Shown: positions 16,351 to 61,860 of the stretch, one piece after another
Layout of the letters: each line of letters starts with the position of its first letter
How positions within the stretch are numbered: position 1 is the first letter of the stretch
Assembly: GCF_027942865.1 (NCBI RefSeq)
Contig: NC_134510.1
Coordinates: 26,281,209 to 26,345,208, forward strand
DNA length: 64,000 nt
Direction: 5' to 3'
Source: Odontesthes bonariensis
Lineage: Eukaryota > Chordata > Actinopteri > Atheriniformes > Atherinopsidae
Translations under genes and position numbers: made by a program
Notes under the pieces: model-generated
Told to the model about the DNA's origin: nothing
Databases searched by the model: none
What the model saw: only the letters and a program-made list of their open reading frames with translations

Positions 16351-16376
16351 AGCTAATAGTCCAGTCATTGTCACAG

Positions 16377-19300
16377 CCCGAACCTGAGAGGGAGCTTCAG
16401 CCTCAGCCACAGCAGCAACTATTAGAGTCAAACCTCGAGCACCAAGTGAAGCCAGTGTGGATAAAGCATCAAAGGCTTCTCCTCTTCCTTTTGGGATTCT
16501 CTTTATGTTCCGCCATTCTGGGACTGATCTACTACATGCACCACAATCTCCATACTGAGAGCAATAACAATGCCACTCCTGGTAGGCCTTTAGAGAAATG
16601 CAACAATATTAGACATTACATGTGGAATTTTGCCTTTCTATCCAACTCTTCTCTCACTCTTTCCCGTAGTGACTCCGTGTCTCTCTCCAGCCTGTCAGTG
16701 GGCCGCAGCCCGTCTGTCCATGTCCACTGATCCTTTCACACAGCCCTGTGATTACTTCATGTTCACATGTGGAGCAGACAGACTTTCAGCAGAGGGCGGA
16801 GGAAGATATAGAGGTCAGGACATACCTGGACATCCGCAAAACCAGATGGAAAAGAGACTAAATGAAGAGAGAGAACGCAGAAGACCGACAGAGTTACTGA
16901 GCCGGAAAGCTGTGCTGCTGCAGTATCTAAGAAAGATTTTAGGTAGGAACCTGTCCATTCTGTTTTTTTTTAATATGCGAGTCCACTTGTACCTGATAAA
17001 TTATTTGAACTGTCTATGTCAGGTCTAACAGCTGATGGTAGAAGTCAATATGAAAACCAGACCACAAGCTTTTGAGAACTGTAGAACTGGAGGACGTGAT
17101 ACAAATTAATAGTAATAATAATAGTGATAATAAATAAATCAATTTGCAGCTTTTAAAGGGTCCTAAAGCTCCCATCATAGTCAAATTAAATTTCTTATTA
17201 GGAACCACCACAAGACTTTCTAGATCTGAGTGCCTAGACAAACTAAGAAACCATAAACAGGGGTTTTGAGCAGATGATGCAAAGCAATTTTCTGGAGATG
17301 GAAGACGTTTACAGAAAGATAATCAGGCCTTATTGTAGAATGGCCAGATAGAAGCCATTCCTCCCTAAAAGACACATAACAACCAGCTGGAAAATTCAAC
17401 AAGAAGGAACGCTGTAGTTCTTTCAGTGTTAACACATCCCACGGAAAATAGTCAGGTATAGAGGAACGGAAAAAAACGTCTGGCTCCCTGGAAGCAATAT
17501 AATAAAAAATGAAAACACTGTTACACAGTACTGTCACCTTTTTCCCAAATGATGTGTGCAGACGAAACCAGAGACTGAGCATCACCTTATTAGTACTGTC
17601 CCTGCAAACATGGTGATATTCTGTGGTGATATTTTTCCAGAGCAGGAGCTAGGAGATTAGGGTACAATGGATACAGAAAAATATAGAGTAACTTTGAGGA
17701 AAAACCCTCCAGATTACTTGGGACATAGATTTATATTTCAGCAGTAACCCAAAGAAAAACACCAGGAAAACTGATCTAAATTGTGTTTCTGTATCTCTGT
17801 GTTAGAGACAGATGACAGTTTGGGTAGTTCAGCTGTGCAGAAGACTAAAGAATTTTACCATTCCTGCTTGGACGCAAGATCTATAGAAGCCGCAGGAGCA
17901 GAACCCTTCCTCACACTCATCCAGAAGGTATGATGATGATTGTTACCCTGTATAAGAAGGTTTTTGGCTGATTGTTCCCAAAACAGGCCATTAAATGCTC
18001 CCTTTCTGCAACATTATGGTAGTTAGTTAGAATTAGGTAGTTGCCCCTTTGTTTCTATAGTTAAAGATACAAATAACCACAAGAGAAAAGAAATCAGTGG
18101 AAAATTACTTTCCTAAACATGTATCATCGATATTTAATGGCTGCAAATTCTCAAATGTGAAAACTTTTGGATTTTCTTCATCTTACGAGACAAGCAACTC
18201 ATCAGTTTAAAGACACCACCTTGGAAGGAGGTTATTCTTGTAAAAGAAAACTGTTGTTTGTTGTTGTAGGCCTTCTGTGTTCAGGCAAAAAAAATACTCC
18301 AAATGACTCTCATTTACTTCACACTGCTCACTGTCTACTTCTACTGGACTACAGAGGTCCTACAGAATAGAAATATGCAGTTTCCAGGAGATATGCTCAC
18401 TAGCAGGCGATGCAGCTGGTATGTGGCTGTCCTCCATGACAGACAGATGCATATGAGGAGAAAGGAGACTGACTAAGAAAGTCCCATAGCTGCGCTGATC
18501 AGTCTCATCAGCCACTACTCCCCAAACCACTCTGTGACCAAAACCATACCCCACCACCAGAGTTATAGTCATTTTATTTTTATTTTTTTTTAATTTTGCT
18601 GTATTTGCTGTCTCCTTTCTGCATATAGCTGGGGGGTTGGGCAGTATCAGGGCAGTGGAATAAGACTGATTTCAACTCCACCCTTGGTTTGCTAATGAGA
18701 GACTTCGCCACTTTTCCATTCTTCAACCTCTATGTGGGCAAAGGCCCAAATGAAACTGCCCATGGGACGACCAAAAGATACATACAGGCCAGTTCCAACA
18801 AGGATATGATGTGATGATAATGATACGATGAAAGTAGCAAATAAGCTTTGTGTCATGACTTCAACTCATGTAATCTCTTAACAACAGATTGATCAGCCAG
18901 AACTGCTGATCCCAATTGAATGGAACAGCAAGACACAGAAGTCTGAGGCTAAGACGGAGGTTGATAATCCCTGCTGATGACAGAAATATCGTACAACATC
19001 ATTCATGCATGAAACTAACAGTAGTGTGTTTTCTGTATTCAGACTCTACGTCCCTTCTTGGCATCATGTCAGAGGTACCTGGCCCTCCTGGGATCCCCGC
19101 AGAGCAGAAGCATGATCCATGTGGGCATGTTCATCTCTTTGTCCTCTGAGCTTGCCGTAGCAGCTTCACCTCTGCACTATCGTCTGGCGAAAGGACAGCT
19201 CCATCAGCGCATGACCATCAAAGAACTTCAGGTACGGCGAATTCTCATACTGTCAAGTGTATGCTGGGGCAAGTTTGGGTTTCATACTCAACTTTGGCTT

Positions 19301-40300: not shown

Positions 40301-41105
40301 ATTAGCAGACACATTTTGATATAATGCACTGCAGGCGACTCTGCGAATCACTTTTTCCTCCTTCAGAGACGGCACCAATCTGCATATTAACAGACTCGTA
40401 ACTATTAAATGAAGCAAGGTTTAGTGTAAAATCAAAGCAAATTTAAAGGATCACAGGAAACAGAACTCCTAAATTCGTTATTTTGGCCAACAAATATGAG
40501 ATTTTTAGGGTTTATTTACTGCCGACAAAGAAGCTTTTGTAGAAAAGAAAGATTGTATGAAAAAGTAAAGGAGAAAGTTACAGAAGCTCATTTGGAACTA
40601 ACATCATTTTCACTGCAGATACAAATAAGCCACTTGATAAAACTATGTAAAATAGACTTTTTTAAAGCTACATTGAAGTAAAAGTGTGTGTGTTTTTTTT
40701 TTCCTTTTATCTGTAATATTGTGACTATTGAGTGTGATTTATCAGGCGCCACACGAAGCGTACAATATGTGAAGGCTCTCTGAGCGGATAGTTTTGGATT
40801 ATCTGTTTTGAAAAGCCTGGTTTTGTCTGGGCTAAGTGCTCCATTTGCACAACACTTAGCGGTACTTTTACGTGCTTTTGTCTTTTTTTCCAGTGCTCCA
40901 TCGAGTGGTTCCATTTTGCATGTGTGGGCCTAACAACCAAACCACGAGGCAAATGGTGAGAAAGTCCAAAGCGACGGGGAAATTCGGGACATATCAGCAT
41001 GTACAGTGAAGGTGTGAATTGTTGCCAGTTACCTTTAATTCCCTCTTCTTATTCATGCTATGCAGGTACTGCCCACGGTGCTCTCAGGACAGAAAGAGGA
41101 AGTAA
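37354..41105 (+). CDS. ing4: ING4, PHD-finger subunit of the HBO1 acetyltransferase complex
   Basis: Eight exons (37354-37390, 37796-37867, 38599-38765, 38855-38969, 39074-39185, 39280-39424, 40894-40955 and 41066-41105) encode 249 residues, the same length as human ING4. ING4 recruits HBO1-JADE/BRPF histone acetyltransferase complexes to H3K4me3. Visible parts are the N-terminal coiled-coil ING domain ([20 protein letters not shown]), the [19 protein letters not shown] stretch, a basic nuclear-localisation region ([11 protein letters not shown]), and a C-terminal PHD finger. The PHD finger runs from [17 protein letters not shown] to WYCPRC with its C4HC3 ligands. ING5 is the close paralogue, but the MAAGMYLE start and the nop2/ncapd2 linkage favour ing4. 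The sequence around the start includes AAGATGGCGGC, also a YY1-like motif. Confidence 0.95.
39425..40893 (+). other. ing4: ing4 intron 6
   Basis: Longest ing4 intron at 1.47 kb. I see no gene. A segment ending GGGATCAATAAGGTTTCT near 40274-40291 resembles the 3' tail of some fish LINEs, but nothing upstream confirms this. Confidence 0.4.
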
Positions 41106-41987
41106 AACACCTGGTTGTTCTGGAACAAAACGTGGACACCGACCTGATGGACGATGAGAAGAATATTTCTTCACTAGTGACTAGAACCTTTTGTTTCTCA
41201 TCTTTTTCTTAACATTCGGTGCTTTTCTCTGGTTTATGTCCTTGCCTTGGTCTGATGCAGTGGGTGTGAAGGAGCCAAGTGGTTACAAATTTATTTAAGG
41301 TTTGATTATTTTATTTTTTTAATGGATAACATTAATTTAGTTTTTTTTCTTTCTTTTTTTTAAGTTACCCTTGGTGCTCTTATTGTGACTTATTTTTTTA
41401 CATTTTGATGTCCAAGTGAATAATAAACACTACAACTGCCCCCAATTGTTTAATAATTGAAGTTTCCATAAAACTATATACTGTATGTACATGTACAACC
41501 ATAAAATTGAAAGTATTTTCACTCAAAACTGGCCATGGATGATTTTTTTTTTTGCTTTGTTGTACGGGGTTAGCTTCTTGTGTTTAACCTTGGAACATTA
41601 GTTTAACGGAAGGGCAAATATGAATAGAAATGCAGCATCCTGACAGTATTAGGCAACTATGGTAGTGCGTTGAACCATTTCATTTGAACATTTGACCAAG
41701 TGCTGCGTAGTAGGACATTTCTTGAAAAGTGTTGTAATTTCTGTAGCTGAAACATTGGTACCGGAGCGTGGGAATGATTGTGTTGTCAATCATTTTAATA
41801 CAGCTACTACCTCAAAAAAAAAAACTTTTTCTGTGTCGTCTTTTGTCTCAGTGTGTTCCGTTATAATGCACTTTTTAAACTGGATTTGTCTGACTCTGAA
41901 ATGGCAGTTCTCATTTTGTAGTGTAGTGTTCATAGTTGTCCAGTAGGTGGTAGTGTTCAGTCGAGCTCACAGCCAAAGGGGCGCATG

Positions 41988-42035
41988 TGACGTCACTGCT
42001 ACGTTACTTTGGCGCGATGTCCAAACAAATTTGAA
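41988..42035 (+). promoter_or_regulatory. ncapd2: ncapd2 promoter: CRE, E2F and CHR-like sites
   Basis: A palindromic TGACGTCA lies at 41988-41995, TTTGGCGCGA (E2F type) at 42008-42017 and TTTGAA (CHR type) at 42030-42035. All are just upstream of a non-coding first exon whose donor follows 42140. An E2F/CDE-like site a dozen bases before a CHR is the classic arrangement of G2/M-regulated promoters, and ncapd2 is a mitotic gene. Assignment is by motif only. Confidence 0.55.
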
Positions 42036-42549
42036 AAGCAGAGGACTCGAACCGTTTCGTACACGGAGGAAGACGAGAGTAGGGGGACTTCTTTTATACA
42101 AAAGTTTGAATTGTGGCAAGCGGCACAGCTGTTATTCCAGGTAACTTATGTTTTATCCATCCATCCATCCATTTCGATGGTTTAGTCTTTCTCAAACTTT
42201 TTCCGCCAAACGGCTGACACGTTTGTGTGGCTAGCTTTGAAAGTTAGCCTGCTAACTTTAATAGCATTAGCTGTTGTTTGTTTTGAGTCACATTAACGTT
42301 ATCTTACAGTTATATAGAGACCGCTTCAAGTTTTTATGCTACTTATAAAGACGGGAGTAATTTTTGCATGTTCAGATTTTTAGCACCCCCAGTTAGCATT
42401 AAGAACAAGCAAAAACACGATGTAACCCCATAGTTTGCTACTACAACAATGCCCCGTATCTGTAACGGAGATCATGCATATTTAGCGGAGCAAACCGACT
42501 TACTAGGTTATTTAAGGTTGCAAATCCACTAATGTTTTCATTCTTAGGG

Positions 42550-45500
42550 ATGTCGTGGGACTTTTTTGTGCCTGTGTGCGTGGGGGACCTAGTGAAGACT
42601 GGTGGGATCAACCAATACGTCGTGCAGGATGTGGTCTCCCCAAAACAGCTTTCATCCCAGCTCAGTAGTAAGTTTAAATAGTAAGTTTGTATGGATTATG
42701 GAGCTCCTCTTTGTTAACGCATGGTTGTGACTGGACTCTCTTTCACATCAGGATTCAAGGCAGCTCTGAGAAGCCAGGGCCCTTTGTGTGTATTGGAGCA
42801 TTTCGACACAGGCTACAGTGTGTTACAGTAGGTGTTGATCGTGTGATGCTTGAAGTTTTTACTGTGATTAATTAATTATTTTTTTTTTTTTTACAAAATA
42901 AACTCTTTTCTTTTTAAGGCACTTCAACTCAGTGGATCTTGGGGTGAAAGAGGATACTCTGGAATTGCTTGTCCAAGGTTAGCCCCCCCCTTTGAATGTA
43001 TGTTTTTATATTTAAATTGACAACCGTGATAAACTCGGGACATCCATTCTGATATCATGAGTTTTCTTTCTCTTCCAGTGGTTAGTGGCCTGGCTGTTTC
43101 CCTGCCGGCACTTCTGGTCTCCACCTCCCTCTCAGCTGCTGAGCGCAAAGAGAATCTTAATGCAGTTAAAATGAGTGTCTTCTTGCTCTGCAAACTCGCC
43201 GAGAGCCTTGAAAGCGTCTCCTACAGACAGTGTATTGTCACAGCACCAGGGAAGGTATGGTTATCGATGAGCTTTTTACTTTGGCTATAGCCTTTCAATT
43301 AATGCTTCTGCATCAAACCACTGGGAATGTCCAATGATGAGTCCATGGCAAAATTTATGATCCAGTCAGACCAAGACACTGTGGTCTTTAGCCGGCTGAT
43401 AGGTGGGTAGTCTTGGTAGTGTGGCTGAGTTTTATTACACTGCTGTAAGGGCCCACCCATAGCAACATTGTCTCTTTCTACAACCCCTGACCTCCTGAGA
43501 GAAATAGGATGTGTTAAGTAGAAGATGTCAAACAATCTGTGAGTCTTTTAGTCTTTTGTATGTCTTGTATGAATGTCCAATATATGTATCAGCTGACATG
43601 AAGCCATAGTGTCTGCATAGGTGGTTTGGCAGTTATGATTAACTGACTTTGGTAATCTGAGGGCATTTTTCCCCCCATTAACTTGATTTATTTTTTTTAA
43701 CGGTCACTTTTAGGGGTTTACAGTTGAATATCTTTGAAGGTTAACTTGCTAAATGGATCAACCTTCTCTTGTTTTGGACAGGGTGGGAAAAAAAGCAAAT
43801 CGGGTGCAGAAGGACTTCTGCAGTGGGACTCGGAGAGAGAGGGGGTGCTGCAGGCTCTTGTCCAGCTCCTGCAGCTGGATATCCGCTCCCTCTGGAGCCT
43901 CTCTTTGGTGGAGGAGGAGTTTATCAGGTACTCTGCTGTCTGAGAAGCTGTGGGCGAAGTACCACATCATTGAACTGTCTTAACTAGGTTACATGGTGTG
44001 ATTTCCCAGCATTGCTAACACTGTAGCTTAATGGGGACTCTGCGTGTTCATTAGTGATGTCACAGGAAATTTAATAAGGTTAGATGATCCTGGAAATGTG
44101 TTTCATTGCCTAATTTATTGGAAATTGCCCTGTAGTCTGAAATTATTTTCATTTTTTTCAGGAGATATTTGTGTTATAGTTCATGTTTAGTTTGTCTTTA
44201 GTTGTAAGGTCAGCACTAGAATCTCTAGTAACTTGTGCTTTAATAAAACATTAGTCACACTTACTGTGCAGTTCTGATTAATTCAGTATCTTATGCCATT
44301 TAATCTTGGCTTCAGGTTGCTTTTTGCACATACAATAACACGAACAAACTTGAAACTGTACGTGTTTTATTTCCTCTTAGCTGTGTGACCTGCTGCTGCT
44401 ACAAGCTACTGGAGAACCCGACCATCGGTCACGTCAAGAGCAAACCCACCAGAGATTGTATAATTCACTTACTGGGATTGTTGATCAAGAAGTACAATCA
44501 CCTCCTAGGTTAGTGTCTCCATCACATACAGCCCTGTGAACAGATTTTATTATCCAACATAAGAGCCACTCATCTTTGGCATCTATAGTTGCTTTGTACT
44601 GTTTTAATGTCTACTCTTAAAATTTTATAGGTGCCGGTGTTAAAGTGATCCAGTTGTTGCAACACTTTGAGCAGTTGTCATCGGTATTTGCCCAGGCTGT
44701 GTCTGTGTGGAGCACAGAATATGGAGTCAGAGCAATCATAGGAGAAGTCATCAGGTCGGTACATGATTTATTCATTTATTTTCTTCAGCTGCTGACACTT
44801 GACTTACCCTTTTAAACGAGTTTGTGGAAATCTAAGACATTGAAAGCAAATGCATTTCTGGCTAAAAGTAAATGCTTCTCTCCCATCCCTCAGGGAAATT
44901 GGTCAGAAGTCTAGTGAAGAGCTCGCCAGAGAGGGATCAGGTGTCAAAGCCTTTGCCACCTTCCTTTCAGAACTCGGTTCTCTGGTACCTGAATTAATGA
45001 TCCCCAACATCAGTGTCCTCATCACACATCTGGAAGGAGAGGTATGTTGAAAAGGAAGTGTGTTGGTCTTTAGACGGCTAGTTTTGTGCTATTTTCATCC
45101 ACATATTTGTGTTTCTTGTAAAATGTGTTAGAAAAACAGAATCACTCACTAATTCTATTATTCCTTTAACCAATGTCCCCCATATTCAGCTTGGCAGTTT
45201 TTTTGTTTAGTTTCTGTTAGTGTGTTTTTCTTCTTCTTGATATTTCATGCATATTTTGCCCAGTGATGAGACCAAGGCGAATACGAGCTCACTGAATGAG
45301 AGTTGGGTTCTTCTTGCCTTGACTGGCAGGTAATCTTGGCAGTGCAGAGGAGGATTCCTGCTCTGCTGTAAGGGCCTGCCGACAGTGACTTGGCTCGACC
45401 CAAATTATTCCTCTACAGTCACAGAGGAGTAATTGCTTGGGGTGATGCTGACAGGGTGTGAGTGTTGTGCGTTTGCATGATGTGTGTGTGTGCGCAGAAG

Positions 45501-48500
45501 GCAAGAAGCATACCCATCTCTCTTTGCTCTTCTGTGAGCCATGAGTGCAGTCTTTGGTAATCTGAGGGCTGTAATCTGTAAAGTTTTCCCACGTGTTTCC
45601 TGATGCAGTCGTAGAAACTACACGATCTTTGCACTCCGACTTAAAAACCTGCTTGAATGTCATTTCTTTCAGAGCCACACAATGCGTGTTGCCGTCTGTG
45701 AGGTGCTGGGGGAGATCCTTGTGCGGGTCTTGTGTGGTGATGGGCTAGATGACTCTGGCAAAGCAGACCGCGACCGCTTCTTCGACATACTGCAGGAGCA
45801 TCTGCATGACACACACTCCCACGTCAGGGCGCGTGTGCTTCAGGTCTACACGCGCATCGTCAACAGCAAAGTATGTTTTCTTTGATGCTTTGTGTATATT
45901 TTTTTTAAATCAAATTTGAAGTGAAGTCCCTCTTGGTATTAAAGGCGTTTTCTGAATTCAGGCGCTGCCTCTGTGTCGGTACAGCGAGGTGATGGAACTC
46001 GCTGTGGGACGCCTGATGGATAAATCTATAAATGCAGTGAAGAGTGCCATCCAGCTGTTGGCGGCCTTCATTGCACATAATCCATATAGCTGCAAGGTAA
46101 CTCAAACAAAAGTGATTCAGTCTCTTAAGTGTCGGGTATTTCTTAGGTTTCAGCACTGGGCTTTGTTGTGATGTCTTTCAGCTGAGCAGCGCCGATCTGA
46201 AGAAGCCTTTGGAGAAAGAGACGGCTAAACTGAGAGAAATTAAAGAGAAACTGGAGGGGGAAGCACCTGGTAAACATCCTCCGTGATTGTTCAGAAATGT
46301 CTTTTAAAATCGTGCACTGTAGAATGATTTAATTCGTGTTGAGTTCCTGTTTTGCCCAGTGATGAGACCAAGGCGAATGCGAGCTCACTGAATGAGAGTC
46401 ACGTTCTTCTTGCCTTGACTGGCAGGTAATCTTGGCAGTGCAGAGGAGGATTCCTGCTCTGCTGTAAGGGCCTGCCGACAGTGACTCGGCTCGACCCAAA
46501 TTACTCCTTTAAAGTCACAGAGGAGTAATCACAGGGGAGGGAGCTGACAGTGTGTGTGTTTGTGTGCGTGTGTGTTTGGATTTGAAAGAGGCAAGAAGTT
46601 TACTTTTCTCTCATTTCTGAGCTGTGAGCTGTGTCTTTGGTAATCTGAGGGCCAAAGTAAAAACACCCACTCAAACCGTGCACGTTAGGTATGTAGCTTG
46701 AACAACTCGTCCTGTTCAGTCGCATTTGTAACTTTCAAGCTTTCATCCATTTTGTACAGTTATTAAACCTTATTTTAAATTTCTACAGCTTTAATTTATG
46801 AATTTGGAAGTGCATTTAGATAAGAGCAGATGGTGAATATTTGAATTATTCATATAAAACTGAAAGCAGTCAAAGTTCCTTGATGTTATTAGTGGCATAA
46901 ATTATGGCATTTCAAATGTAGCATCAGTAAATCATTATTTTTTTCCACAAACTGAGGGACCTTTTTTAATCGCTCTTTAATTTGGGTAAGAAGATTATCC
47001 ATTAAAAGTATTCATCAGCCCTGCAGGCCGACCGCACAGCTAGATATGTCTTTATTTAGTTCATTATTGGAAACAGAAAGAACACGGCTTCAGGTATATT
47101 ATGATGGGGAAAATGGCACATTGGAGAAAATTAAGAAGAAAAAAAGTTGTAGTCAAGCAACACTCTCCTGATTCTGAGACTGACAATTCATCCTGCTTCT
47201 ATTTTAATTTCCCAGTGCGTTGTTCCACATTTTCTTTGTAGCTTATACATGGGGAGCTGTCACTGAATTAGATTTTTTTCATTTATTTTTTTCTCCCTGC
47301 AGTCGCAGTGATAAAGGCATCGGAGCTGTGGGATGCCATGGAGCCTGAGCTCCTTGCAACTGTCAGGACAACGCTGGAGCCCACGAGTGAAGAAGAGAAA
47401 GAACAGGGGGAGGAAGAGGATGACAGGGGTGTGGAGGAAGAAAAGGCTGCAGAGGACGACAGAGCGACTGCGGTGAAGATAGCTCAGTACCTGCGCGTCA
47501 ACAAGTACAGGTGATGGTTGTCACCAGCGGAGGCGCGGCTAAAAGTTGATCGGTCGTGTCACTGCCTCAGGGTTTTCTTTTCTTTGCCTCTGCTACAGTG
47601 TTAATTAGGCAAGAATTTGACATGAAGTATGTTATCTCCCCCTGTGCAGGAATGCTGTTCAGCTTTGTATACGAGCTCACAGCTGCTTCCCAGAATCTGA
47701 GATGTTTGCGTGTCTGTCCACTCTCACTACCAAGAATGTAATGGACACGCTGGCTTTGATTTTCAAAGGTAAAAGCTTTGTGCAGTTCACTTAATACATG
47801 TCTATGAAGAGATGATTGAACACATTTTAGGTTCAGGTCAATGTGTTTCCATTTAATTGTTAAAATTTGATTTAACTTTGGCTGTGTTTTACAACACTAA
47901 AAGACTTCTCAAACCATTGGTCTCAGTTAGAACATCAGTAACACTGTGTGTTGTAATACGATGCCAACCATCACAAATCTGTTACTGAACTGAAACCTCT
48001 TCAGTCCCTTCCAAGAAGTAGCTTTAATTTAATTAACTAAACAAGCAGTTTGACTCATATATGTGAAACTTGATTCCCTTTTTGTCATGAATGTCCATCT
48101 GATTCTTGTCCTTCTTCTGATTAAATCAAAAACCTTCCCACTAGTTAACATGGTTATCAGCAGATGCGTACACCGCCCCTTAGAGACTGGCTCGTGAGAT
48201 CCCGTCACAAAGGAATTTAGTAATAATTAGCTAATTATTCGGGTTTTTTTTTTTTTTTTCTTTCATCTAAATGCTGCCTGTTCACCTGCCTTTCACACAT
48301 TAAAAGCATAAAGGTCACCTAATTATTGAGCAGCAGCTTCAGGAGCTGCTATAATCAAGCAGCGATTGTAAAGTAGTTTTTATACGTGGGTCTTTTTTTT
48401 TTTAAATTTATTTATTTTTTTTTATTATAAATGCCAAATCACATCAATTGTTTTACAGTAAATCCTCTATCCCTGGTATTAACCTCAGGCTCTAGTGAAG

Positions 48501-51500
48501 ACGCCTCGGAGCTCAGCCAGAACTTGCCACCAACCCCACAGAAAGAGGGAGCTGAAGAGGGGGACGACAGTGAACTGAAGAAGCAGGAGATGTTGGTGCA
48601 ATACCTGAAAGATACAGAAACCTTTGCCTTACAGGTGGAAAGAGCGATATCTGTCATCAACATGATGCTCTACTGGAAAACAACTTCGGGTACAAATCTC
48701 AGCTTATTTTACATTTCGGTTTATAGCTTTAAACGCTAAAGAGGTGCACATTGTATATTCTACGAGATAAATGGGGTTTTTGTTTGTTTTTAGTGGTCCA
48801 GGAGGCAGTGCAGTTTTGTGTGACGGTGTGCGAGTTCAGTGTTGCTAACTCTGTCAGCGGAGTGAGGAAGATGTTGCCTCTGGTCTGGTCAACTGACGCC
48901 GCCATTAAAGATGCTGTGGTTCAGGCCTACCGGCGCCTGTATCTGAACCCTCAAGGAGACACCGTTAGGTCTGTAGAGAGAATATACATAGACAGTGTAA
49001 AGCACATTCTGTTCGTATCCATTTTGTGTTAAGACACCGTTATCAATTGCTCAGTTATGCTTGTATTTAATCTCATCTTGAGGGTCAGAATTCATATTCG
49101 TTGTGACGATTACAGTCACATTTGATAAATTTTCTGTGAATGCTTGCAGGCTAATGTTCCTATTTTAGGCTCGTAACATTCATTAGATGTAAAAACAATA
49201 TAATACTGCTTGCTTGACATAATTTATTTATTTATTTTGTACACATCAGGAAAACAGGGGAAAAATAACCGCATTTGTCTGATCTTTTATCAGGCTGAAA
49301 GCTCAGACTCTTGTGGACAACCTCTCTGAGCTGATGGTGGATGCATCTCTGGGAACTATCCAGTGTCTGGAGGAAATTGTGAGTAACTGTTATTACTCTA
49401 ATATGACTCATATTAGAGTATATTAATGACTCATTCATGCGTAATGTTGAAAAATATGTCTAAAAAACTGATTAAACGTTCATTGAGGGGATTGTGTGTT
49501 GAGTTTTTTTTTTTTTTCTCGTACTAAAGCAATCAACCTTGTAATCAATGCAAACACGTGTCCGTAGGTGCAGGAGTTTTTCGGCAGTGGCAGCATTCTC
49601 CAGTCCAGCGTAATTCAGATGTTGTGGGAGAAGTTTACCGGTAAACGAGAAACTCCTGCCATACACAAGCGGGCTGCAGTGTTACTTCTGGGCATGGCTG
49701 CGCGGTAAGAGACAAAACTGCGTTTTTTCCAGTTAGACAAATTTATCATACCATGATGAAGAATTACTGTCTCATTGTTCCTGCCTTTGACTGTCTGGTT
49801 GTTTTAGTGAAATCTGCTACTTTTTCATCAAAAAAAGCATCTCAAACTAATTCCATAACACCAAGAAAGTTTAGACCACCACAGGGAGTTGATTAGTAGA
49901 TGCACTGAGCAACGCCTTTTTACATAATTAAATGTAGAATTCAGATTCGCAGCTTAGTGTTTATTCATGAACAACTCGGGGCAGTAGATTAGGTGAGCAC
50001 ATCAACCAAATCTAATATTCCAAGTCAGATAATGAGACAAAAGACAACATGGACATCTCCTCTTCAGTCATTTACAGTCTGTTGACGAGTGGAAATAAAT
50101 TTTATACGGAGGTTTTGATGTTTCTGGAACTCAACCGAGTCATTTCTCACCTACACTTATTCATTGTAATCACAATCTAATTAATTTAATTAAATTTTAG
50201 TCCAGTTCATACATGCAAAGCCAATTTTTTATCTTTTTATTTTTTTTGCTAAGGAAGCCAAAAGATTGCCCTGAAACTTCTCTTCAGTCCAGCCCCCCCC
50301 CCCCCCCCCCCCCCATCCTGCTCACTCTGGTGTCAGAGGGCAGAAACCCCTGAAAGTAACTGTCAGTTCACTGGCTTCTCATGAATGTTTACTATGAATC
50401 TCATTTTAGTTTACTTGTCATGCAAATTGTTTAAGGGATGATTTCAATCTGGAATCCAATTTTTTTACATTCTCTGAACAATATAATTAAAAATCAACTG
50501 GAACGGGCAACTTTAGTAAATTTTAACTGTATTTTGATAAGGATGTAAACTGTATTGTAAGATTAACTTTAATTTATTTTCACACCAAACATTACCTATT
50601 GACGTATATTGAAATGATCAGTGTTTCACACCTGCAGAGAACCTAACTTGGAATTATGACTTGAACTATTTTAGGTGCCATTCCTGCCTGTGTAATGGCA
50701 CTATATTTTGGTCCTTGACATACAGCAATTCCTCATTCGATTCGTCAGAACACAAGCCCAGCCTCGGCTCCTCTTCATTGTAATCAAAGGCACGACCATA
50801 TATCTGGCTCCTTGCCAGTGCATTTTGTAAATGTGTATATATATATATATATATATATAAATATATATGTTCTGTGTTCAGTCTACCTCAAAGAATGCTG
50901 CCGCTTTAGGGAAGAGTGATCGAGTGAGAGCAAATGTGAGGGGAAAAAAACAGTATCTGCAGTCCACCCACACTGCTGCTTCTCCTCATCCAGCATCGGC
51001 AGCATTCATAACCTATTAAACCTTCTGTGCTTCTCCTAACCCATCCTCCTACATGCATTATCTGGGCACCAGCCTAGCTCTGGCGAGGCCAGCACAGAGC
51101 ACTTGATTTAGGGCAGTGTGACTTTGTATAAAGATGTGATCATATTGCATTTTAAAATGTGTGCTTTAACGATGCTCTAACGTATCTAACAGGGCGGAGA
51201 GAGAAGTGGTGCTCAGTAATCTGGATACTCTTTGTTCTGTGGCTCTGGGAGAAAAAGTGACTGAAGACTTCCTTCTAGCAAGAGACACAGTTATCACTAT
51301 CTGCAGCATCACGGACCACGTCAGGGTAAGCTGTGAACCATGGTTTACAGACCTGTAAAGCTATCCAAATCATCATTTAACACGGTGCTGATTTTCTGCA
51401 AGTGAGAAAAAGTGCATCATTTTGCACTATGATGTAATAGGTTAATGGGAAGAGGCTCTAATGTTAACGAGCTGAAAGCGCCTGTCGCCACCTAGGGTGG

Positions 51501-54500
51501 AAGTGTCAGACATACTTCAATCAATAACTCAATAATTTCCCTCCTGTGCTTTTATACTGAGACAAGGACGGTAAGCCAATTAAATGGCCACGTGGAACTT
51601 TAAACGCACTTGTAAACACACTGAATGTTCTAATGCTTTTCTTCAGCAATCAAAAGGAGCTCCATTCAGGCTGCCTCAGGACCATCAGCTCTTCACCTGC
51701 CTCACACAGGCCATCGCTGAAGGTAACGACAGACGAATGTGCTCTTTGACTGGAAAAACGTCTACTTTTTATGGTCTTAGAGGATGAGACCGCAAGCGGT
51801 GGAAACTGACTGTATATTTGCTTTAGGTGCGGTGATGGAAGACCCTTACTGGCAGAGCTTTATGGAGCAGGCCGTCCGTCTCATCTACTTCCTGGCTGAA
51901 TCCCCGGACCAGCTGTGCTCCCGGCTGCTCCAGCGAAGCGCTCGCCTCTTGCTTGATCAGATTGCAGAAGGCGGCGAAGTCAACAGAGATGTTGGCCAAA
52001 CGCAAGATGGATCTCAGGAGTCCAGTGAACAAGGCGAGTCATAATGTCTTAGTAAAGCAGACGTTTTTTTTTTTTGTTTTTGGTTCAAAAATCTCAGTGA
52101 CTTATCATTGGCGTGTTTTGACGTCCACGCTGATGATGTATGACTTGTCCCTGAGCTAGCTCTTCATCACATGTGTCCATTTGTCTTTGTCTCCTGCAGT
52201 GAGCTGTGCGTGTCTGGCGCAGCTGTTGGCTCTGTGTGGATGCGTGGCTTTCTGGCAGGTGTCTCACCTTGAGCGCAGTGTGAGTGCTGAGCTGCGGAGG
52301 AGGAGAGGAGAGACTGAGGAGAGGGAGGAGAAGGAGAAAGGACCCGCCAGTAAAGCTAAGGTAACGAGCTGCTGCGCAGGTGTTAGACTATACGATATGT
52401 TATGCTTTGGACTAGTTGGGGAAATAACTAAAGTTATGTAGGATTTCCGTGCAGAACCTGCCCACTGCCATGTTTCTTTTGTTCTGGGGAACCGTGTAAA
52501 GTTGAAATTATTGCTACTACTTCTGTATCTATATGATTTGAATTAAGTGTTTTATGGTTTCGGCAAGAAAACATAAAACAAATATGTGATGGTTTCACAT
52601 CAGTTTTCATTGTTTCATGAAATGAATGAACTGTGCGACTTTTCGTATAGGAAAAAATACATATTTGGGCTCTGGGAACTCACACCTCATTAGTTGATGA
52701 AATCGACTTGTTGATTGATTTTCATATTATGGTTCTGGACTCTGATCAGATGTTTGCACAAAACTATTTGGAATGCTCAACTCGACAAAAGTTGGCGAGC
52801 CTAAATCGAATAAAAGTACTTGTACAGATACTTTGATTTTACTTAAGAGTCGACGCTGAAGCCCAAACAACCTGCTGTGCAGTGATGTATTTCCACAATC
52901 AGAGCGCGTCTCAGCAGGGCGGCTTTATGATGAGATTTTAGTGACACAGTTGATGAGTGATGGTTCATAATTGTTCAGCCCGACGGGGGATGGGAAGATG
53001 AATGTTTCCTTAATTGCGATCGGAATTTTTTTTTTTTCATTTATTTATTTATCTTTTTCATGTGTTTCTCTCTCAATCCTGAGACAGACAGTGGGAGACT
53101 TTGACTTTCAACCAAACGTATAGGTTCACATAAATATGCTTTTTACACATATTTGACCTTTAGCATTTAACATTTCTGTGAGTGATGAGAACACTATTAA
53201 CACCCCCTGAGCAGTGGGCAGCTGCAGAGAAGCAGTAGGGGGGCTGTGAGCGCCGTGGCACTTCCCCAATGAACTGATCACTCAGCCTTTAGGCCAAGAT
53301 TTCTTTTTCTTGCCAGTCAGGGAAAGGAACTGATGAGCTTGTGGTCAGAAATGGCTTCTCTTGGGTATAAGCACCAGCTGCCCTCACAGACACCAGCACA
53401 GGGGGAGCCATAAAAGGCCCGGGTTGGAATTAGACCTGGGTGGATACGTACTGAGCTCTAGAACATGGAGAGTCTGCTTCACCAGGTGTGCCACAGGGGA
53501 GGCTCCCAGTTGTCATTTGTTTTACCAGAACTACATCATGCTATTTTTTTTCCTGGATATGAGGCAAATTACATCAGATTGTGCCTTTTTTAAAGAAGGA
53601 GCACCGCACTCATCTAATAGGCATTCATGGTGTTTTTTGAAGGGTTTTATGGGTGATGGTTTGTCTTGCAGCAAGCAGCCAATGAAAGTGCCATGGAGGA
53701 GGAGCTCGGGTTGATTGGTGCCTCTGCTGAAGATACAGAAGCTGAACTCATCAGAAAAATCTGCGAAACAGAATTACTGGCTGGTAAATAAAAGCTCATG
53801 TCATTCGTTGTCTGGACCACATCAAGCTGTGTTATGAACCCTTCGTGATACTATTGATCTTCTTCGTAAATCATATAAATAACCAGCTTATCTCAATCTG
53901 TTTAGAGGAAAACCTGCTGAGTGCTTTCCTGCCTTTACTGGTGAGAGTCTGCAGCTCCCCAGGACGCTATTCCCACCCCCAGCTCACCACTGCTGCGTGT
54001 CTGGCACTCTCTCAGTACATGATGATAAGGTAAACATGTGATTAAACCATTTTCCTACAGCGTCGTACTGATTGTTGGACAAGTGCATAGAATTTGGAAT
54101 TGTAAACTTGAGTTTTCAGAAATTATTATGGCAGGTTGTTACTAATATCTGACATCTGATGAGTCAAACAGTCGGCTTCCGAATAGAGCATTAATGCTGT
54201 AATTTCTTTATCCCTTCTGTCAGCCCATCAGTGTGTGAAGAAAACATCCGCCTCATTTTTACGGTGCTGGAACGCTCTCCTCTTCCTGTCGTGAGGGCCA
54301 ATGCCATTATAGCCCTGGGAGACCTCACAGTCCGTTTTCCAAATATTTTGGAGCCCTGGACACAGAATCTCTATGCGAGGTAACGTTATGACCACTTCTG
54401 TTAGACCAGCTTATGAATACAAAACTTATTTATCACAGTGGCAGCTCCCTCCCTCGTCTCACACATACACTAATTGACTCTCTAGATGAACATCATCATA

Positions 54501-56926
54501 TCCGTGGATTACTTTTGTTTTTCCATCCAAGATTGTAAGAAGGAGCGTACACGCGCTGGCTCAGCTGAGTGGGTGTATTGTAAATGACGTTTCATTGCAG
54601 CAAACGCCCCCCCCTCCAATGCTTGTAAAATCAAGCCGTCTTCATATCCAAATCCCACCATTTCTCAGCGTGCAGAGGGCTGCTGCTGCTGCTGTTGCGA
54701 TGCTCCACTGAGCCACATGATGGGAAAAGTTGACTCGATCCGTCATGACTTTTTAATGGTGGGAAACAAACTTTAGAGAAACTTTAGACATGATCTATGG
54801 TGGCAAACTTTGATAATGTGCTTCATATTCTGCAGCTGTGGTTGCCATGGGAACTTAACATCGCTTAATGGCTTTTAAAAAAATAAACAAATCACCACGC
54901 TTGAACTTGGGTGGAGACTCGGATCACTTCGGGCAAGGGTGCCGAGAAACAACGAACAGCCTAATTACTAGTGTGTTTTAGATTGTGAGTAGACCCAGTG
55001 ACTAGTATTTCATAATTATACAGTTTGGTTGAGGGGAGCTCACAGGAAGAAGTTGGCTGAAGTCAGAGGTTTTACAAAGGCTTATGCTGTAGGTGTGCTT
55101 TCATTTTAAAAGCAGTCTTTGTTACTTCTACGCTATTTTCCTGGAGCCAACTAAGACGCTGAAGTTTGCTCCATTTGAAGTGCAGTTGTAATTATAATGG
55201 AAAATAATGCTCACATTGAGGTGTTTTCCATATGTGAAACATTAGTTTCTTTTATAAGACCCTACTGTGCTCGTAGTGTTTTCTACCTGATAAGCATTTC
55301 AGAGCGTTCCCTAATTGTCTCCCACACACCACCACCTCCACTGTTCTCGTGGCTGCTGCCCTGGTGCCTCCTGATAAGCGCATTAAGAATTAATTACCCT
55401 GTTCATTGCTGTTGTAAGCTCCTGCACTGGCATGTGGAAGTAGCATGTACAAATGTGTGATCCTCTGCCAGGAGTCCTGCTCTCTGGTTAAAATGAGAAA
55501 TGGTAAATGAGTTTCTTTTGTTTTGTGGTTTCGGGTGAGGGTAATTCTAAATTGGTCTCACGTTGCTCTACCACAGCCTGTCCCGTCCTAATGTATTCTG
55601 CCAAGGTTGTTCGGTTTCAGTCATTTGAGGCCAAAATGACATAAGTATAGGCGATGTACCTCTATTTATCCCCTTTTATTCCTGTCTAGTCGTGCCTTTG
55701 ACTTATATAGTTCTCATGTAGGCCATCGGTTTCATCCAACTTAGAATATTAAGGAATACTGTAGATGTTTGTCGTTCCATTTTAACAGGGATTGAAGTGA
55801 CCAATACGTACTTGTACTTCTAATTTTTCTTAAAGTACACCATTTTGTTGACAGTCTTTCAAGAGTCAGACACATCAGTAAATTACATGAGGTTCTATGC
55901 AAATATAGAGATCTAAATGCAGATGCTTAATACTTTGAATCTCTGCATACAGTGGAAATCCTTGACCACAGCCTGCCACTGCAAGACACCAAATTACTCT
56001 CGAGTACAAGAAAGGCGACGGCCTCATTATCCGGCGTTTGATTTGTTTACCCAAAAAATTGTGGAGAAGGTGGCAAACAAGGCTGCGTCCAACACTCTCA
56101 AATATATGTCCGTAAATTAATTAACCGGAGACGCTGAGTTTCCCATTTCTCTACTAATTACCTGTAGTGTTGCTGGTGCCGGTTCACATGGTAACACTGG
56201 CAATAAGTTGTAAATGTTCAAAGTTCCTTTACTTTTGAAAGCACCATTTTATACAAGTCATCTGAAGGTAAAAGTGTCGAATTGTAAACTTGTCATCGCA
56301 CCTGACTAATCACACATGAAGGACACTTATGTGGACTCATTTTCCTTGGTCCTGCTGGCTCTCCTGATCCCCTGGTTTTGACTGTAGCTTCATCGGAGGG
56401 TCCGATTTATTTCAGCAAGCAAAGTGTATCAGCATCCACCGAATGAGCTGGCATGAAATTCAGAACATTTGCTTTCAGCTCTTTCTGCCTTTGCATTAGA
56501 TTAACATGAATGCGTTGGCAATCAGCCCAAGTGAAAGTTATTTTTAAAAACATGGCATTTTTATGCAGTGAGGAGTTTAAAAGCCTGATCTGACTATGGA
56601 CCACGGAAATATGCAAATCTCCTTTTTGCATTTTAACCCTAAAATTTAAACAAAAGATGAATCCATCTCATGTAAATCAACTAAAATTGTTGTACATTGT
56701 GTGACTCCCATGACTTATCACCCATATTACAGATGGAATTTTTTTTTCTTTGTGCCATTACCAAGTCAAATTTGACTTTGTGTAGCACTTTGGTTTTAGA
56801 CAAAATGGCTTCAAAACCATTATAATCTCCTGCAGCACCAACCTAACTTTAAGTGATAGCTATATAGTTATATAGTCAAATGAGATATTATAATCCAACA
56901 CCGCTTGTGTTGCCTGTGTGTTTTGC

Positions 56927-56957
<31 letters not shown>

Positions 56958-57435
56958 ACACACACAGACACACACCCGTCTTAACGTGTGTGATGCGGCT
57001 TCACATTTTCTACCGAGGAGGAGCTGTGATTGTTGCAGTTGTTATTTACACAGATGTGCTTCATAGAGCAGAAACGGAGGGAAAACCTGGAGGGGTTTTA
57101 ATTTGATTACAACAGTTTAAATAATAATTTTATTTAAATAAATAATAATCATTTCATTTAAAGTGCCGGTGACATCATATATGTGGCATTAAGTTAAAAC
57201 TGACCATTTAGCCCAAGGCCCAGCCGTTGTAAGCATGCAGATAATCTAAACCAACAAACTCTAAATGGCTTTATGTCTGTTAGATATCCACATGTTTGTT
57301 CTCTCATTTTCATCATGATGTTTTTATTTAGATTAACTTTTTACTTCACAGAGCAGCTGGTATGGCTGAGGACTGAGTCAATTACCGAAGAGTCTGAGAC
57401 TTAACAAGCTGGCCTGTAATTTGATTTTTTTTTTT

Positions 57436-57480
<45 letters not shown>

Positions 57481-59547
57481 TTATTTTTTTGTCCTCTCCT
57501 TCTCCTCCTTCTTCCTCCAGACTAAGTGACGAGGTTCCTTCAGTGAGGCAGACCGCTGTGACAGTTCTTACTCAACTGGTGCTTAAGGATGTGCTCAAGG
57601 TCAAAGGTCAAGTGAGCGAGGTGGCCGTGCTGCTGATTGACCCGGAGCCGCACATTACCAGCCTGGCCCTGAACTTCTTCAATGAGCTGGCCACAAAGGT
57701 ACACACATCCAGGGGCCGTGATGGACACTGAATAAACTGACAGATGTTTAACTCTGTTATTTGCGCCACCCGTCAGGACAACGCCATCTACAACCTGCTC
57801 CCTGACATCATCAGCCGCCTGTCGGATCCAGAGAGAGGCATGAGCTCAGAGGACTTCAACACCATCATGAAGTGAGTTTCACAGCTGTCCAGGATCCATT
57901 CTTCCAGTGGATGTCTTCGTCCACAGAGTTTATGTCCACAATTTTGAAACGGTCGTAATTTAAGAGACTTTTGAGGGGGGATCTGAACAGCTCTGCCATT
58001 TCTACAGTTTGTTTAGAAGTTGTGTCTGTGTTTTCAGACAGCTGTTTTCCTACATCACTAAAGAAAGGCAGACTGAGTCTCTGGTGGAGAAATTGTGTCA
58101 GCGCTTCAGGACTGCCAAGTGAGTACATCTTCCCTCATGCTCATCCTGCCACCTCTAACCTGCATCTTCTTTTGTTTTCACTGAAACCGTTTCGCTGCTC
58201 ATTTCTGAGTCTGTCCTGCTCTGTTTCATTGTGTGAGATCTGCGGGTGGATGTGTGGGTAATTGGTGGGTGTTTTCACTGGGAAGAAAATTTCACAATTA
58301 AAACAAGTTCACAGTTCAGTTCACCCATCACGTACACGGACATCTTTTTGTCATGGAAACAGTGTTCCTCTATAGTTGGGCAGAGTAGATGGGATGACAG
58401 GCCTGGCCAGGCTTCAGCCTCTGACTCATACTCCATCCATGCACGAAGCTCAAAGGAAGGACACTTTATATTATACGATGGCAAAGTGAATTGAGGCATA
58501 AAAGGTTCCTCGCAAATGAGATTTGGTCCAAATATCAGGGCGATGCCGTGTTCATGAGTAATGAGCTGCTTTGTTTAGGGTCTGGCATGTCTGTGCATTT
58601 TGTTGTTGCTAATCAGGTTTATTTCCTAATCACTCAAGCTTTCGTTCTGTGCTCTCCTCAGGACCGAGCGTCAGTGGTGTGACTTGGCCATGTCCCTGTC
58701 TCTGCTGTCCATGTGTGAGCGTGGTTTTAAGAGGCTGCAGGAATGCTGGGAATGTTACAGTGACAAGTTGACTGAACCTGGAGTCTACCAGCCTCTGCTC
58801 TCCATCACTGCCAAGCTCCGCCGCGGGGCTAAACCACAGTTTAAGGTGAAGTCTACTCCCAATCAAAGTAGATGTGGGTTTTTTTCCCTCAGTCCTCCAG
58901 AAGACGAACCGTTATAGCTAATTTTTTCACTTTTTGCATTTAGTAATGATCCATTTTTTTTATCAGGCTCAGGTCGAAGAGTTTGAGAAGCGGCTGACTG
59001 CGGTTCACACTCGGGGCCTGGAGAACGTAGAAAGTCCTGAGATGGATGAAGAGAACCAAAAGGAAGGAGGGTCTAAAGAGAAGACTGTCATGCGTACACC
59101 TCATCCCACCAGAGGACGTCAGAAGACGAAGAGAGGTCAGAACTCGCAGCTTTGACTTTGAAGTTCCCTGCTCGTTGAAGCAGCTTTTTCTTTTTCTTTG
59201 TTTCGTGTCAAACAAAACACTTTTCTGTCTTTTTTTCAGGTCAAACAAAGTCCTCAATGTCCAGCCACGGTGACGACAGTTTTGTGACTCCTCAGAAATC
59301 TCGCAAGTCCAAGAAACCTGTGATCACCTTCAGCAGTGATGAGGAGGATGAGGAGGAGGGTGAGTTCAGCCTCTGTTTATTTTTCTACATAAAGTTGTTT
59401 GATGATCATCATAATTTTAATTTTTCAACTTGATTGACTGGTAAATGCTCATATGATCGTAAAAAATCCAAACACATTTGTTCACTACGACCTGAGACGC
59501 AGAAGTTGGATGATAAAGGATCTGTTTTTAAAAGTTTTTTTTTTTTA

Positions 59548-59588
<41 letters not shown>

Positions 59589-60379
59589 TCAAGCTGCAAA
59601 ACCTATTTATCCTTTTAGTTTGAATTAGTTTGTCACCCAATTAATCGAGCTTTAATGCTTAAGTTTGTCTACTTTTACAGTTGGTGCTGCGAGTCTCTTT
59701 TGTAGACACTCTGGATGGGATGTTTAGACCAGTGGAGTGAGCCTCACTCGGGAGCTGTCTGAGTAGATTTAAGACGTAAAGTGAGACTAATCCGAGATCT
59801 GCCTGAAAAATCAAATATAAATCCCACATTAACAAATTTAATGTGGGCATAACATTAGATGAGATGGGGAGTATGTGGCTTTTTCAATAGTTTTGATAGA
59901 GGGTAAAATGTCTTTGACGCTTTTGATTAGATTGCAGTTCGGTTAAATGTTTTAAAATGATTAGACTTTAAACCCGAGAGAGTCTTTTGTCAGGAAACTG
60001 GCATTTTTATTTTCTCTGACTCGATAGATTAGTGTGGAATTAGATCATTTTTATATTTCCTTGCAGTTTTACCAATTGGCACAAAAAAACCAGCATTAGC
60101 AGTGCGGCATGTTACATTTCGCAGAGGTTACTGACACAGCGGTGGATTTAAAGCCCCCCCTCCACCGGTCTGAAGAGGAGACGATACATTCTGAAATATG
60201 AACTCTTACAATCGTCTTGTCTCCTTGCTTAGAATGACATGTTCATGAGCTGTCCTCCTTTACCAAGTTTTATTTATTTACTGTTTATTTCATCAGATGC
60301 TGTGATGGCAGAGAGTGAGACCCCCAAAGTGACGACACCCATCGCCCGCACATCCAGACGAGCTCGCCTCAGAAACTGA
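42550..60379 (+). CDS. ncapd2: Condensin I subunit CAP-D2
   Basis: Thirty-one coding exons join in frame to 1399 residues (human 1401). They are: 42550-42667, 42752-42827, 42919-42977, 43079-43254, 43782-43927, 44381-44508, 44631-44754, 44894-45041, 45673-45870, 45962-46096, 46182-46269, 47303-47510, 47650-47768, 48489-48689, 48794-48968, 49294-49378, 49568-49704, 51193-51325, 51647-51722, 51827-52033, 52200-52360, 53672-53783, 53906-54029, 54224-54379, 57521-57698, 57777-57871, 58038-58118, 58662-58845, 58967-59135, 59240-59359 and 60297-60379. CAP-D2 is the HEAT-repeat subunit of condensin I that compacts mitotic chromosomes. Strongly conserved blocks include GGINQYVVQ, FRLPQDHQLF, VKGQVSEVAVLLIDPEP, NAIYNLLPDIISRLSDPE and RQTESLVEKLCQRFR. 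The C-terminus is acidic and basic with SP/TP sites, ending SRRARLRN. Acidic insertions occur in exons 12 and 14. Exon 20 uses a GC donor. Introns 4, 8 and 11 carry scaRNAs. Confidence 0.96.
43327..43666 (+). ncRNA. U85-like (SCARNA10-type) C/D-H/ACA scaRNA, copy 1
   Basis: This element lies wholly within ncapd2 intron 4. A terminal stem AUGUCC/GGGCAU (43327-43332 with 43661-43666) brackets a C box AUGAUGA (43334-43340) and a D box CUGA (43657-43660). The guide CUUUGGUAAU before the D box pairs with U5 loop I, placing U5 C45 at the fifth base from the D box, the methylation position. Inside is an H/ACA-type hairpin with lower stem GGUGGG/CCCACC. Its pocket strands AGUCUU and GUAAGGG fit U5 on either side of U46. 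These are the known targets of U85. The body differs greatly from copies 2 and 3 while stems and guides are kept. Confidence 0.8.
45258..45569 (+). ncRNA. U85-like (SCARNA10-type) C/D-H/ACA scaRNA, copy 2
   Basis: In ncapd2 intron 8, about 100 bases before the next exon. Terminal stem GCCC/GGGC, C box GUGAUGA (45263-45269) and D box CUGA (45562-45565). D-box guide UCUUUGGUAAU matches U5 around C45. H/ACA hairpin lower stem GGCAGG/CCUGCC has pocket strands AAUCUU and GUAAGGG around U5 U46. A second hairpin contains CCUCU...AGAGG, and an H-box-like AAAUUA sits between them. A GU-rich stretch follows (about 45475-45500), possibly the wobble-stem type element bound by WDR79 in scaRNAs. Human U85 is also hosted by NCAPD2. 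Confidence 0.9.
46354..46652 (+). ncRNA. U85-like (SCARNA10-type) C/D-H/ACA scaRNA, copy 3
   Basis: In ncapd2 intron 11. It is nearly identical to copy 2 over its first 180 bases and diverged in the GU-rich middle. Terminal stem GCCC/GGGC, C box GUGAUGA (46359-46365) and D box CUGA (46645-46648). Same D-box guide UCUUUGGUAAU and same pocket AAUCUU/GUAAGGG, so the same predicted U5 C45 and U46 targets. The second hairpin AUUACUCC/GGAGUAAU is perfect and is followed by an ACA. An RNA copy made by recent duplication of copy 2 (or the reverse) fits best. Confidence 0.9.
50293..50314. repeat. Poly(C) run
   Basis: Twenty-two consecutive C residues in ncapd2 intron 17. The length is probably variable and hard to sequence. 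Confidence 0.9.
50835..50869. repeat. (TA)n microsatellite
   Basis: TA dinucleotide run with one interruption, in ncapd2 intron 17. Confidence 0.85.
56926..56974. repeat. Poly(C) plus (CA)n tract
   Basis: An 18-base C run followed directly by a CA dinucleotide array with one GA interruption, in ncapd2 intron 24. Confidence 0.9.
57441..57477. repeat. (TA)n microsatellite
   Basis: About 18 TA units flanked by T runs, ending 43 bases before the exon 25 acceptor. Confidence 0.9.
59549..59588. repeat. (ATT)n microsatellite
   Basis: About 13 ATT units in the penultimate region of ncapd2 (intron 30). Confidence 0.9.
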
Positions 60380-60600
60380 TTTCCGTCTTTCTTGTTTTGT
60401 CTTTTTTCTGTCCCCTTTTATTTTTTATTTTTTTTTAACATTTTATCTATAAAAAAAATGTTGCATTTTTATCTTTATCTTTTTGTACATATTATTTTTT
60501 TAGCAGTATTGGTGCTTGGCACCAAACCTTCAGTAGTCTGACGATCATCTAATGACACAGAATCCAAACGGCTTTTAATAAACCTGTCTCTGGTTTTAAT
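60380..60600 (+). other. ncapd2: ncapd2 3' UTR
   Basis: T-rich sequence after the stop, with AATAAA at 60577-60582, about 200 bases downstream. This gives a short 3' UTR. Confidence 0.7.
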
Positions 60601-61860
60601 GAGAAGTTCGTGTCTGTATGTTTCTGTTTTATCGAGATCTTCTGCACACTGAAGAAACGTCCTGACAAATGTGTGAAGTCTTGTGTGTCTGCTGGTTTAT
60701 GTCAAGTAGATTTATGCCGTCATTACAAGCGGTGTTGACTGCCTGCTTGTATCATGTGTTTGGACAGCAGTGTTTAAAGGACTGCCACAGCTTGCCCAGA
60801 CGGTATTACTGCCCCACTTCAATTCAATTTTCTTTTCTTGCATTTTCTGTCATATTTATTTCAATCTTCCAGAGGAGAAACACGTTCATTGTGTTCCTCA
60901 GTAAAGAGTGAGGCTACATGTTGTTTACTGTCTTTTCTTTTTTTTTACCCTTTTATTCTGTCTGACACACATGCCGTTGCCTAGCTGGCCATTTCTGTTC
61001 TCCTGTAATCAATCTCTTTTGTAGATCTCCCTCCATTCTCTGCCTGGTGTTTTTCTCCCTTTCATTCTCCTCCTCCTCCTCCTACTCTCTTCTGCCTACT
61101 TTTCCTCCAGCGCTGCGCTGACATCACATGCACGGTAGTTTAACCCCCCCTCCCCTCCCCTCATCACTAATCTCTCCCTTTCTCCTACGCCCTCTCCCAC
61201 ACGTCCTCTCCAAAAAGATGAGAGGGGTGCATTTTCTGTATGTGTGATTGATACGTTATATAAAGACACTTGCCAGCAGCAGGCTAACTGTATTTGTCTG
61301 AGGACAATTGCAGTTTAAATGTATTCAGTGGGTGCTGAGAGTGCAACGCCAAGTTCATTTGCACTTCATAACTTTTGTCAGCGCTGTACAAAGATTAGTT
61401 CAGTTTGTTCGCGCTCGATATGAAACCTACGTGAACAGATTGCGTGCTGATTGCACGCCCAGAATCTAACGTTTGTGGCAGGGGTTTATTTACTTGAAAT
61501 AATCAGAGGCTGCCGAACTTTAAGGTCAGTGTGTTGGATCATGCAGCTCCTGCTAATGTTGTAATTTGGCGGCGGGGGGTACAGGGAGCAGATGGCACTG
61601 ACAGACTGTAACTTACCCAGCAGAGAGGGGAGGTCACTGCACGCTGGGAAAGACCACTGAGACAAAGGGAGAGAGGGAGGCTTATATGCTAGAGGAGCAT
61701 TGTTACCACATGGGAAATGTATAATTCAGGTTAAGTCGTGACTGAAACAATCACGTGGTTCTTTCCAACGGCTCAACTGGTAATTTGCAGGTTGCTTTGA
61801 CGAAGCACTCGCTGACCGTTGCCCTCTGACCTTGGCTTGTGCAGCACGCTGGCTTCAGTT
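60601..61860. other. Intergenic, upstream of the natriuretic peptide gene
   Basis: No gene is recognised. A pyrimidine-rich tract lies at about 61020-61210. Promoter elements of the natriuretic peptide gene probably lie toward the 3' end of this stretch, but I cannot fix a start site. Confidence 0.35.

Follow-up and report, generated by a model that had tools for sequence, protein, structure and literature searches.

The introns of ncapd2 in Odontesthes bonariensis raised the question of whether one host gene carries several genes for the same guide RNA. The window analysed was a 64,000-nucleotide (nt) stretch of contig NC_134510.1 (assembly GCF_027942865.1, positions 26,281,209 to 26,345,208 of the forward strand). 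The original prediction had placed three U85-type composite small Cajal body-specific RNAs (scaRNAs) in introns 4, 8 and 11 of a single ncapd2 gene in this window. From the sequence, the elements were identified as three genes for the U85/SCARNA10-type composite scaRNA in one host gene; the Rfam scores and the guides carry this identification.

Identification of the U85 genes

The whole window was searched with cmscan against Rfam 15, the gathering score for snoU85 (RF01296) being 41 bits. Three full-length matches above this score were obtained, which bore out the U85 identity; copies 1 and 3, whose scores might have stood at background, reached 55.8 and 58.5 bits. The coordinates, strand and number originally predicted were right within a few bases, with introns counted by coding exons.

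43327..43666, + strand: U85 copy 1, intron after coding exon 4, about 340 nt; RF01296 match at 43329-43665 (+), 55.8 bits, E 1.5e-11, model 1-329 of 329; fold z -2.62
45256..45571, + strand: U85 copy 2, intron after coding exon 8, about 316 nt; RF01296 match at 45258-45570 (+), 62.3 bits, E 2e-13, model 1-329 of 329; fold z -4.49
46352..46654, + strand: U85 copy 3, intron after coding exon 11, about 303 nt; RF01296 match at 46354-46653 (+), 58.5 bits, E 2.6e-12, model 1-329 of 329; fold z -3.50

At gathering level, snoU85 was the only Rfam family reached in the entire window, three times. A permissive Rfam scan of 41000-61000 (E up to 5) gave 8 rows, comprising the three U85 and 5 sub-threshold matches to other families, and no further U85. 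When the elements plus their flanks were used as blastn queries against the window (E 1e-3), no additional or broken U85 copies were found, and the remaining hits were short, T-rich or TG-rich. The core CTTTGGTAATCTGA and the pocket motifs were present exclusively at the three U85 sites on both strands of the 64 kb.

The host gene was traced by open frames and GT/AG borders.

42550..49704, + strand: host gene ncapd2-like (condensin complex subunit 1), first 17 coding exons; continues downstream

The 17 coding exons join in frame, and the joined translation matched four distinct PDB sequences, all of condensin complex subunit 1, with a best E of 6.3e-48. This match, together with the known hosting of U85, gives the gene its name and upholds the host originally proposed. 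Human NCAPD2 carries a single U85 copy. The introns with elements span 43255-43781 (after coding exon 4), 45042-45672 (after exon 8) and 46270-47302 (after exon 11), and all three U85 lie on the sense strand of the ncapd2-like gene, in the intronic NCAPD2 location looked for in U85. Upstream, a non-coding first exon could plausibly end near 42140; with one such exon, the U85 introns would become numbers 5, 9 and 12.

Boxes and guide elements

The boxes and guide elements of the three copies were located as follows.

43335..43340, + strand: C box UGAUGA, copy 1, sequence motif
45264..45269, + strand: C box UGAUGA, copy 2, sequence motif
46360..46365, + strand: C box UGAUGA, copy 3, sequence motif
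43407..43452, + strand: pseudouridylation hairpin and pocket for U5 U46, copy 1; arms pair with U5 48-53 and 39-45
45330..45375, + strand: pseudouridylation hairpin and pocket for U5 U46, copy 2; arms pair with U5 48-53 and 39-45
46426..46471, + strand: pseudouridylation hairpin and pocket for U5 U46, copy 3; arms pair with U5 48-53 and 39-45
43459..43464, + strand: H box AUAGCA, copy 1; fits ANANNA
45382..45387, + strand: H-box position ACAGUG, copy 2; differs from ANANNA at the last base
46478..46483, + strand: H-box position ACAGUG, copy 3; differs from ANANNA at the last base
43532..43534, + strand: ACA box, copy 1
45451..45453, + strand: ACA box, copy 2
46547..46549, + strand: ACA box, copy 3 (ACA shares alignment columns across all three copies)
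43647..43660, + strand: antisense element for 2'-O-methylation, with D box at 43657-43660, copy 1; pairs with U5 42-50, with a mismatch at 51
45552..45565, + strand: antisense element for 2'-O-methylation, with D box at 45562-45565, copy 2; pairs with U5 42-53, of which the last three lie upstream of 45552
46635..46648, + strand: antisense element for 2'-O-methylation, with D box at 46645-46648, copy 3; pairs with U5 42-52

In all three copies the terminal UGAUGA C box and the CUGA D box lie inside the closing stem (helix 1, 100% of cells paired). The closing stem, C box and D box of the original prediction were thus found in each element; it had named a single H/ACA hairpin, and the family model has two.

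The guide positions were the same in the three copies. In the box D antisense element, a G at the fifth base from box D stands opposite U5 C45, with a G.U pair at U46. The two arms of the first H/ACA hairpin pair with U5 48-53 and 39-45 (G.U included) and leave U46-A47 in the pocket; the distance from the first base of the 3' arm to the start of the H-box position is 14 nt. The consensus motif of the Cajal body (CAB) box, UGAG, occurs twice in copy 1 (43426 and 43496), giving two candidate CAB boxes. U5 positions 37-46 were as given in PMC7960923, and published listings name U85 as guide for both C45 (Cm45) and U46 (Psi46) of U5 (PMC7960923, PMC3766210).

Each U85 would most likely come from its spliced intron, which would be debranched and then trimmed by exonucleases while the C/D terminal stem protects the RNA. 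The element before box D would guide 2'-O-methylation of C45 in loop I of the U5 small nuclear RNA (snRNA), and the pocket of the first H/ACA hairpin would guide pseudouridylation of U46 in the same loop.

Following the C box, a stretch that reads ACCAAGGC in copies 2 and 3 (45271-45278 in copy 2) can pair with the box D guide (45550-45558), and the same columns are involved in the other copies. In this helix 3, 6 of the 8 pairs are invariant. Such pairing could mask the U5 C45 guide within the RNA until the target is met.

A UG-rich linker lies between the ACA box and the closing stem at 46550-46575 in copy 3 and at about 45457-45493 in copy 2. GT arrays are common in fish introns, and a UG array was scored only in copy 3 (46550-46575); a UG-repeat Cajal-body signal in copies 2 and 3 therefore stays a lead. 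UG-rich Cajal-body signals similar to this linker occur in some C/D scaRNAs (PMC4041459, PMC6412121), and human U85 was reported to use CAB boxes and to be unaffected by TDP-43 knock-down (PMC4041459, PMC6412121), a further reason for keeping this signal as a lead.

Folding and covariation

Fold z scores were obtained against 100 dinucleotide shuffles per element. One shuffle in 100 was as good as copy 1 (z -2.62), and 0/100 were as good as copy 2 (z -4.49) or copy 3 (z -3.50). Both H/ACA hairpins of the RF01296 model appeared in the folds of copies 2 and 3, but the second was not clearly formed in the minimum-energy fold of copy 1.

In the three-way alignment, 89.6% of 279 cells pair. Among the 94 predicted pairs, 15 were changed on both sides yet still paired; none of 500 shuffles reached 15, and slid partners gave 1-7. 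This covariation evidence for the U85 structure was considered supportive, not decisive.

Comparison with published U85 genes

Other fishes were compared through published papers. In pikeperch (Sander lucioperca), a 2024 paper reported that Ncapd2 carries three U85 small nucleolar RNA (snoRNA) genes, in its introns 5, 9 and 12, and gave their identities as 91.38, 62.31 and 61.63% (PMC11788885). Normalized counts from brain RNA sequencing of six fish were 98.84-437.6 (intron 12), 121.4-638.7 (intron 9) and 2.41-31.9 (intron 5), and all three were higher in planktivores (PMC11788885). The main text of that paper contains neither "Cajal" nor "scaRNA", and its section 3.5, on the U85 genes, does not discuss U5.

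The pikeperch arrangement is like the one found here in that three copies lie in Ncapd2 introns, one distant (about 62%) beside one similar pair, with reads for all three and the distant copy lowest (PMC11788885). If one non-coding exon precedes the coding exons here, introns 5, 9 and 12 would be the same introns. The lengths differ (315, 325 and 321 nt in pikeperch; about 340, 316 and 303 nt here), as does the identity of the similar pair (91.38% in pikeperch, 82-86% here) (PMC11788885). The triple U85 arrangement in ncapd2 is thus real, but it is not new in kind and has already been published in another fish. Because the same introns and similarity pattern are in print for pikeperch, with reads for all three copies, the three-copy arrangement is neither novel nor particular to one species. 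The lineage-specific expansion originally proposed holds only in a broad sense.

The elements resemble human U85 (SCARNA10) as composite C/D-H/ACA RNAs with U5 C45 and U46 as targets and NCAPD2 as host; human U85 has two CAB motifs in its H/ACA loops, and these are less clear in copies 2 and 3 here (PMC3766210, PMC4041459). Chicken GGgCD80, in NCAPD2 intron 3, is a 342-nt U85/U89-type guide for U5 C45 from the same host gene, but one isoform is listed (PMC2653536). Intron numbers alone did not decide the orthology of any copy to the chicken gene. U87 and U88 in ATG16L1 (chicken introns 9 and 11) are likewise snRNA-guide paralogs in separate introns of one host; they belong to another family, with U5 U40 and U4 A66 as listed targets (PMC2653536). 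The same paper notes that paralogous snoRNAs are often found in separate introns of a single host gene (PMC2653536). In stickleback, U85 was named among upregulated RNAs, and the passages naming it state no copy number (PMC4041765).

Interpretation and alternative explanations

The best explanation, held with high confidence, is that ncapd2 carries three paralogous U85 genes that are predicted to be processed from its introns and each to guide modification of U5 C45 and U46. This explanation is favoured by the full-length Rfam matches, the placing of C45 and U46 at the canonical positions in all three copies, the paired changes, the location of human and chicken U85-type guides in NCAPD2 and the pikeperch reads. 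As the copies look redundant, their probable effect is to increase or buffer the dosage of a single guide. Their processing, localisation and modification activity in O. bonariensis are predictions from sequence.

Several points weigh against this explanation. A perfect ANANNA H box is present in one of the three copies (copy 1), and those of copies 2 and 3 are imperfect. Between the pocket and the ACA box, UGAG is absent in copies 2 and 3, where only AGAG or GGAG occurs. Of the U5 bases used for the guide pairing, only those at 37-46 are as given in PMC7960923. The measure of further pair types was matched by 5/500 shuffles, the RNAalifold covariation term of +1.74 kcal/mol is a net penalty, and the consensus energy (-69.66) is much weaker than that of the single folds (-106 to -129). 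The covariation set comprised only three sequences, of which two are near duplicates; as the structure came from this same alignment, the test favours it.

Chance intronic resemblance, for which nothing was found to speak, is an extremely improbable source of the matches, since three lie above the gathering score with none elsewhere in the window and the guides and boxes are in register. It is rather unlikely that one or two copies are active while the rest decay. Decay would be suspected first in copy 1, which diverges most and is weakest in both Rfam score and fold z; the distant pikeperch copy gave counts of 2.41-31.9 versus 98.84-638.7 for the other two (PMC11788885). Against decay, both guides are retained in copy 1, as are boxes C, D and ACA; its H box is perfect, and UGAG occurs in it twice. 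Part of its difference from copies 2 and 3 lies in pairs altered on both sides, a pattern not expected of decay.

The relations between the copies bear on their age. Copies 2 and 3 are near duplicates (260/303 aligned bases identical), whereas copy 1 agrees with copy 2 at 177/310 (57.1%) and with copy 3 at 172/303 (56.8%) of aligned bases. An origin of copies 2 and 3 in recent O. bonariensis history, by retroposition or segmental duplication, was judged unlikely. It would suit the blastn homology of these copies, which is 83.9% over 316 bases and limited to the element (copy 1 matched neither), and their marginally alike upstream flanks, whose score was reached by 8/200 shuffles. Their downstream flanks are not alike (46/200 shuffles); for flank comparisons involving copy 1, the score was reached by 81-116 of 200 shuffles. 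No word of at least 6 nt was common to both sides of a copy as a target-site duplication, and no A-tail was seen in the printed 3' flanks, which rules against retroposition. The identity of copies 2 and 3 is concentrated in the first 150 bases (145/150 agree, versus 115/153 in the remainder, 13 gap columns aside); over the same 150 bases copies 2 and 1 agree at 90/150. This excess suits a conversion of the 5' half without proving it. An older duplication is likely, because the pikeperch pair is still more similar (91.38%) in apparently the same introns (PMC11788885). For copies 2 and 3, an old duplication with constraint or gene conversion of the 5' half is inferred, not proved, in preference to a recent insertion.

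Candidate third guide for U5 Gm37

The stretch following the C box in copies 2 and 3 was also compared with U5.

45274..45281, + strand: AAGGCGAA after the C box, copy 2; 8-base-pair (bp) complement of U5 34-41, weak lead
46370..46377, + strand: AAGGCGAA after the C box, copy 3; 8-bp complement of U5 34-41, weak lead

AAGGCGAA is a perfect complement of U5 34-41; in this pairing, G37 of U5 would lie five bases from a D' box that is degenerate (ACGA/GCGA). Methylation at this site of U5 loop I (Gm37) is known, and one review table shows no guide for it (PMC7960923). A gain of a third guide, for Gm37, by copies 2 and 3 is a very doubtful candidate. The 8-bp U5 match was reached by 150/5000 shuffles and by 67/2343 30-mers of the gene, the D' box of copies 2 and 3 is poor, the complement is missing from copy 1 and the Rfam consensus has 5 bp; in addition, part of the AAGGCGAA stretch pairs internally with the box D guide in helix 3. 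In a Drosophila preprint the matching site, Gm38, was mapped and reported guides were catalogued (PMC13228274), so the matching site may have a known guide already. If the candidate were true, one fish RNA would guide Gm37, Cm45 and Psi46.

Other features of the window

Two further regions of the window were noted.

25995-26468, + strand, with a possible continuation at 26378-26893: linker histone H1/H5 domain (Pfam PF00538, E 2.6e-8)
16239-17028, + strand: frames with a membrane-spanning-like stretch and a PCDYFMFTCG motif

Downstream of the PF00538 domain lies a lysine/arginine-rich frame without a Pfam match, and the 25995-26893 region is possibly an H1 gene with a basic tail. The frames at 16239-17028 gave no Pfam match at E 0.01; they are reminiscent of the N-terminus of M13 neprilysin/ECE-type peptidases.

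Significance of the ncapd2 copies

The O. bonariensis locus adds a second case beside pikeperch; here each of the three copies retains both U5 guides despite their divergence in sequence. With this retention, fish ncapd2 can serve as a natural system in which to ask why several doses of a guide for the exon-binding loop of the spliceosome are kept, and it also suits the question of whether intronic guide copies evolve in concert.

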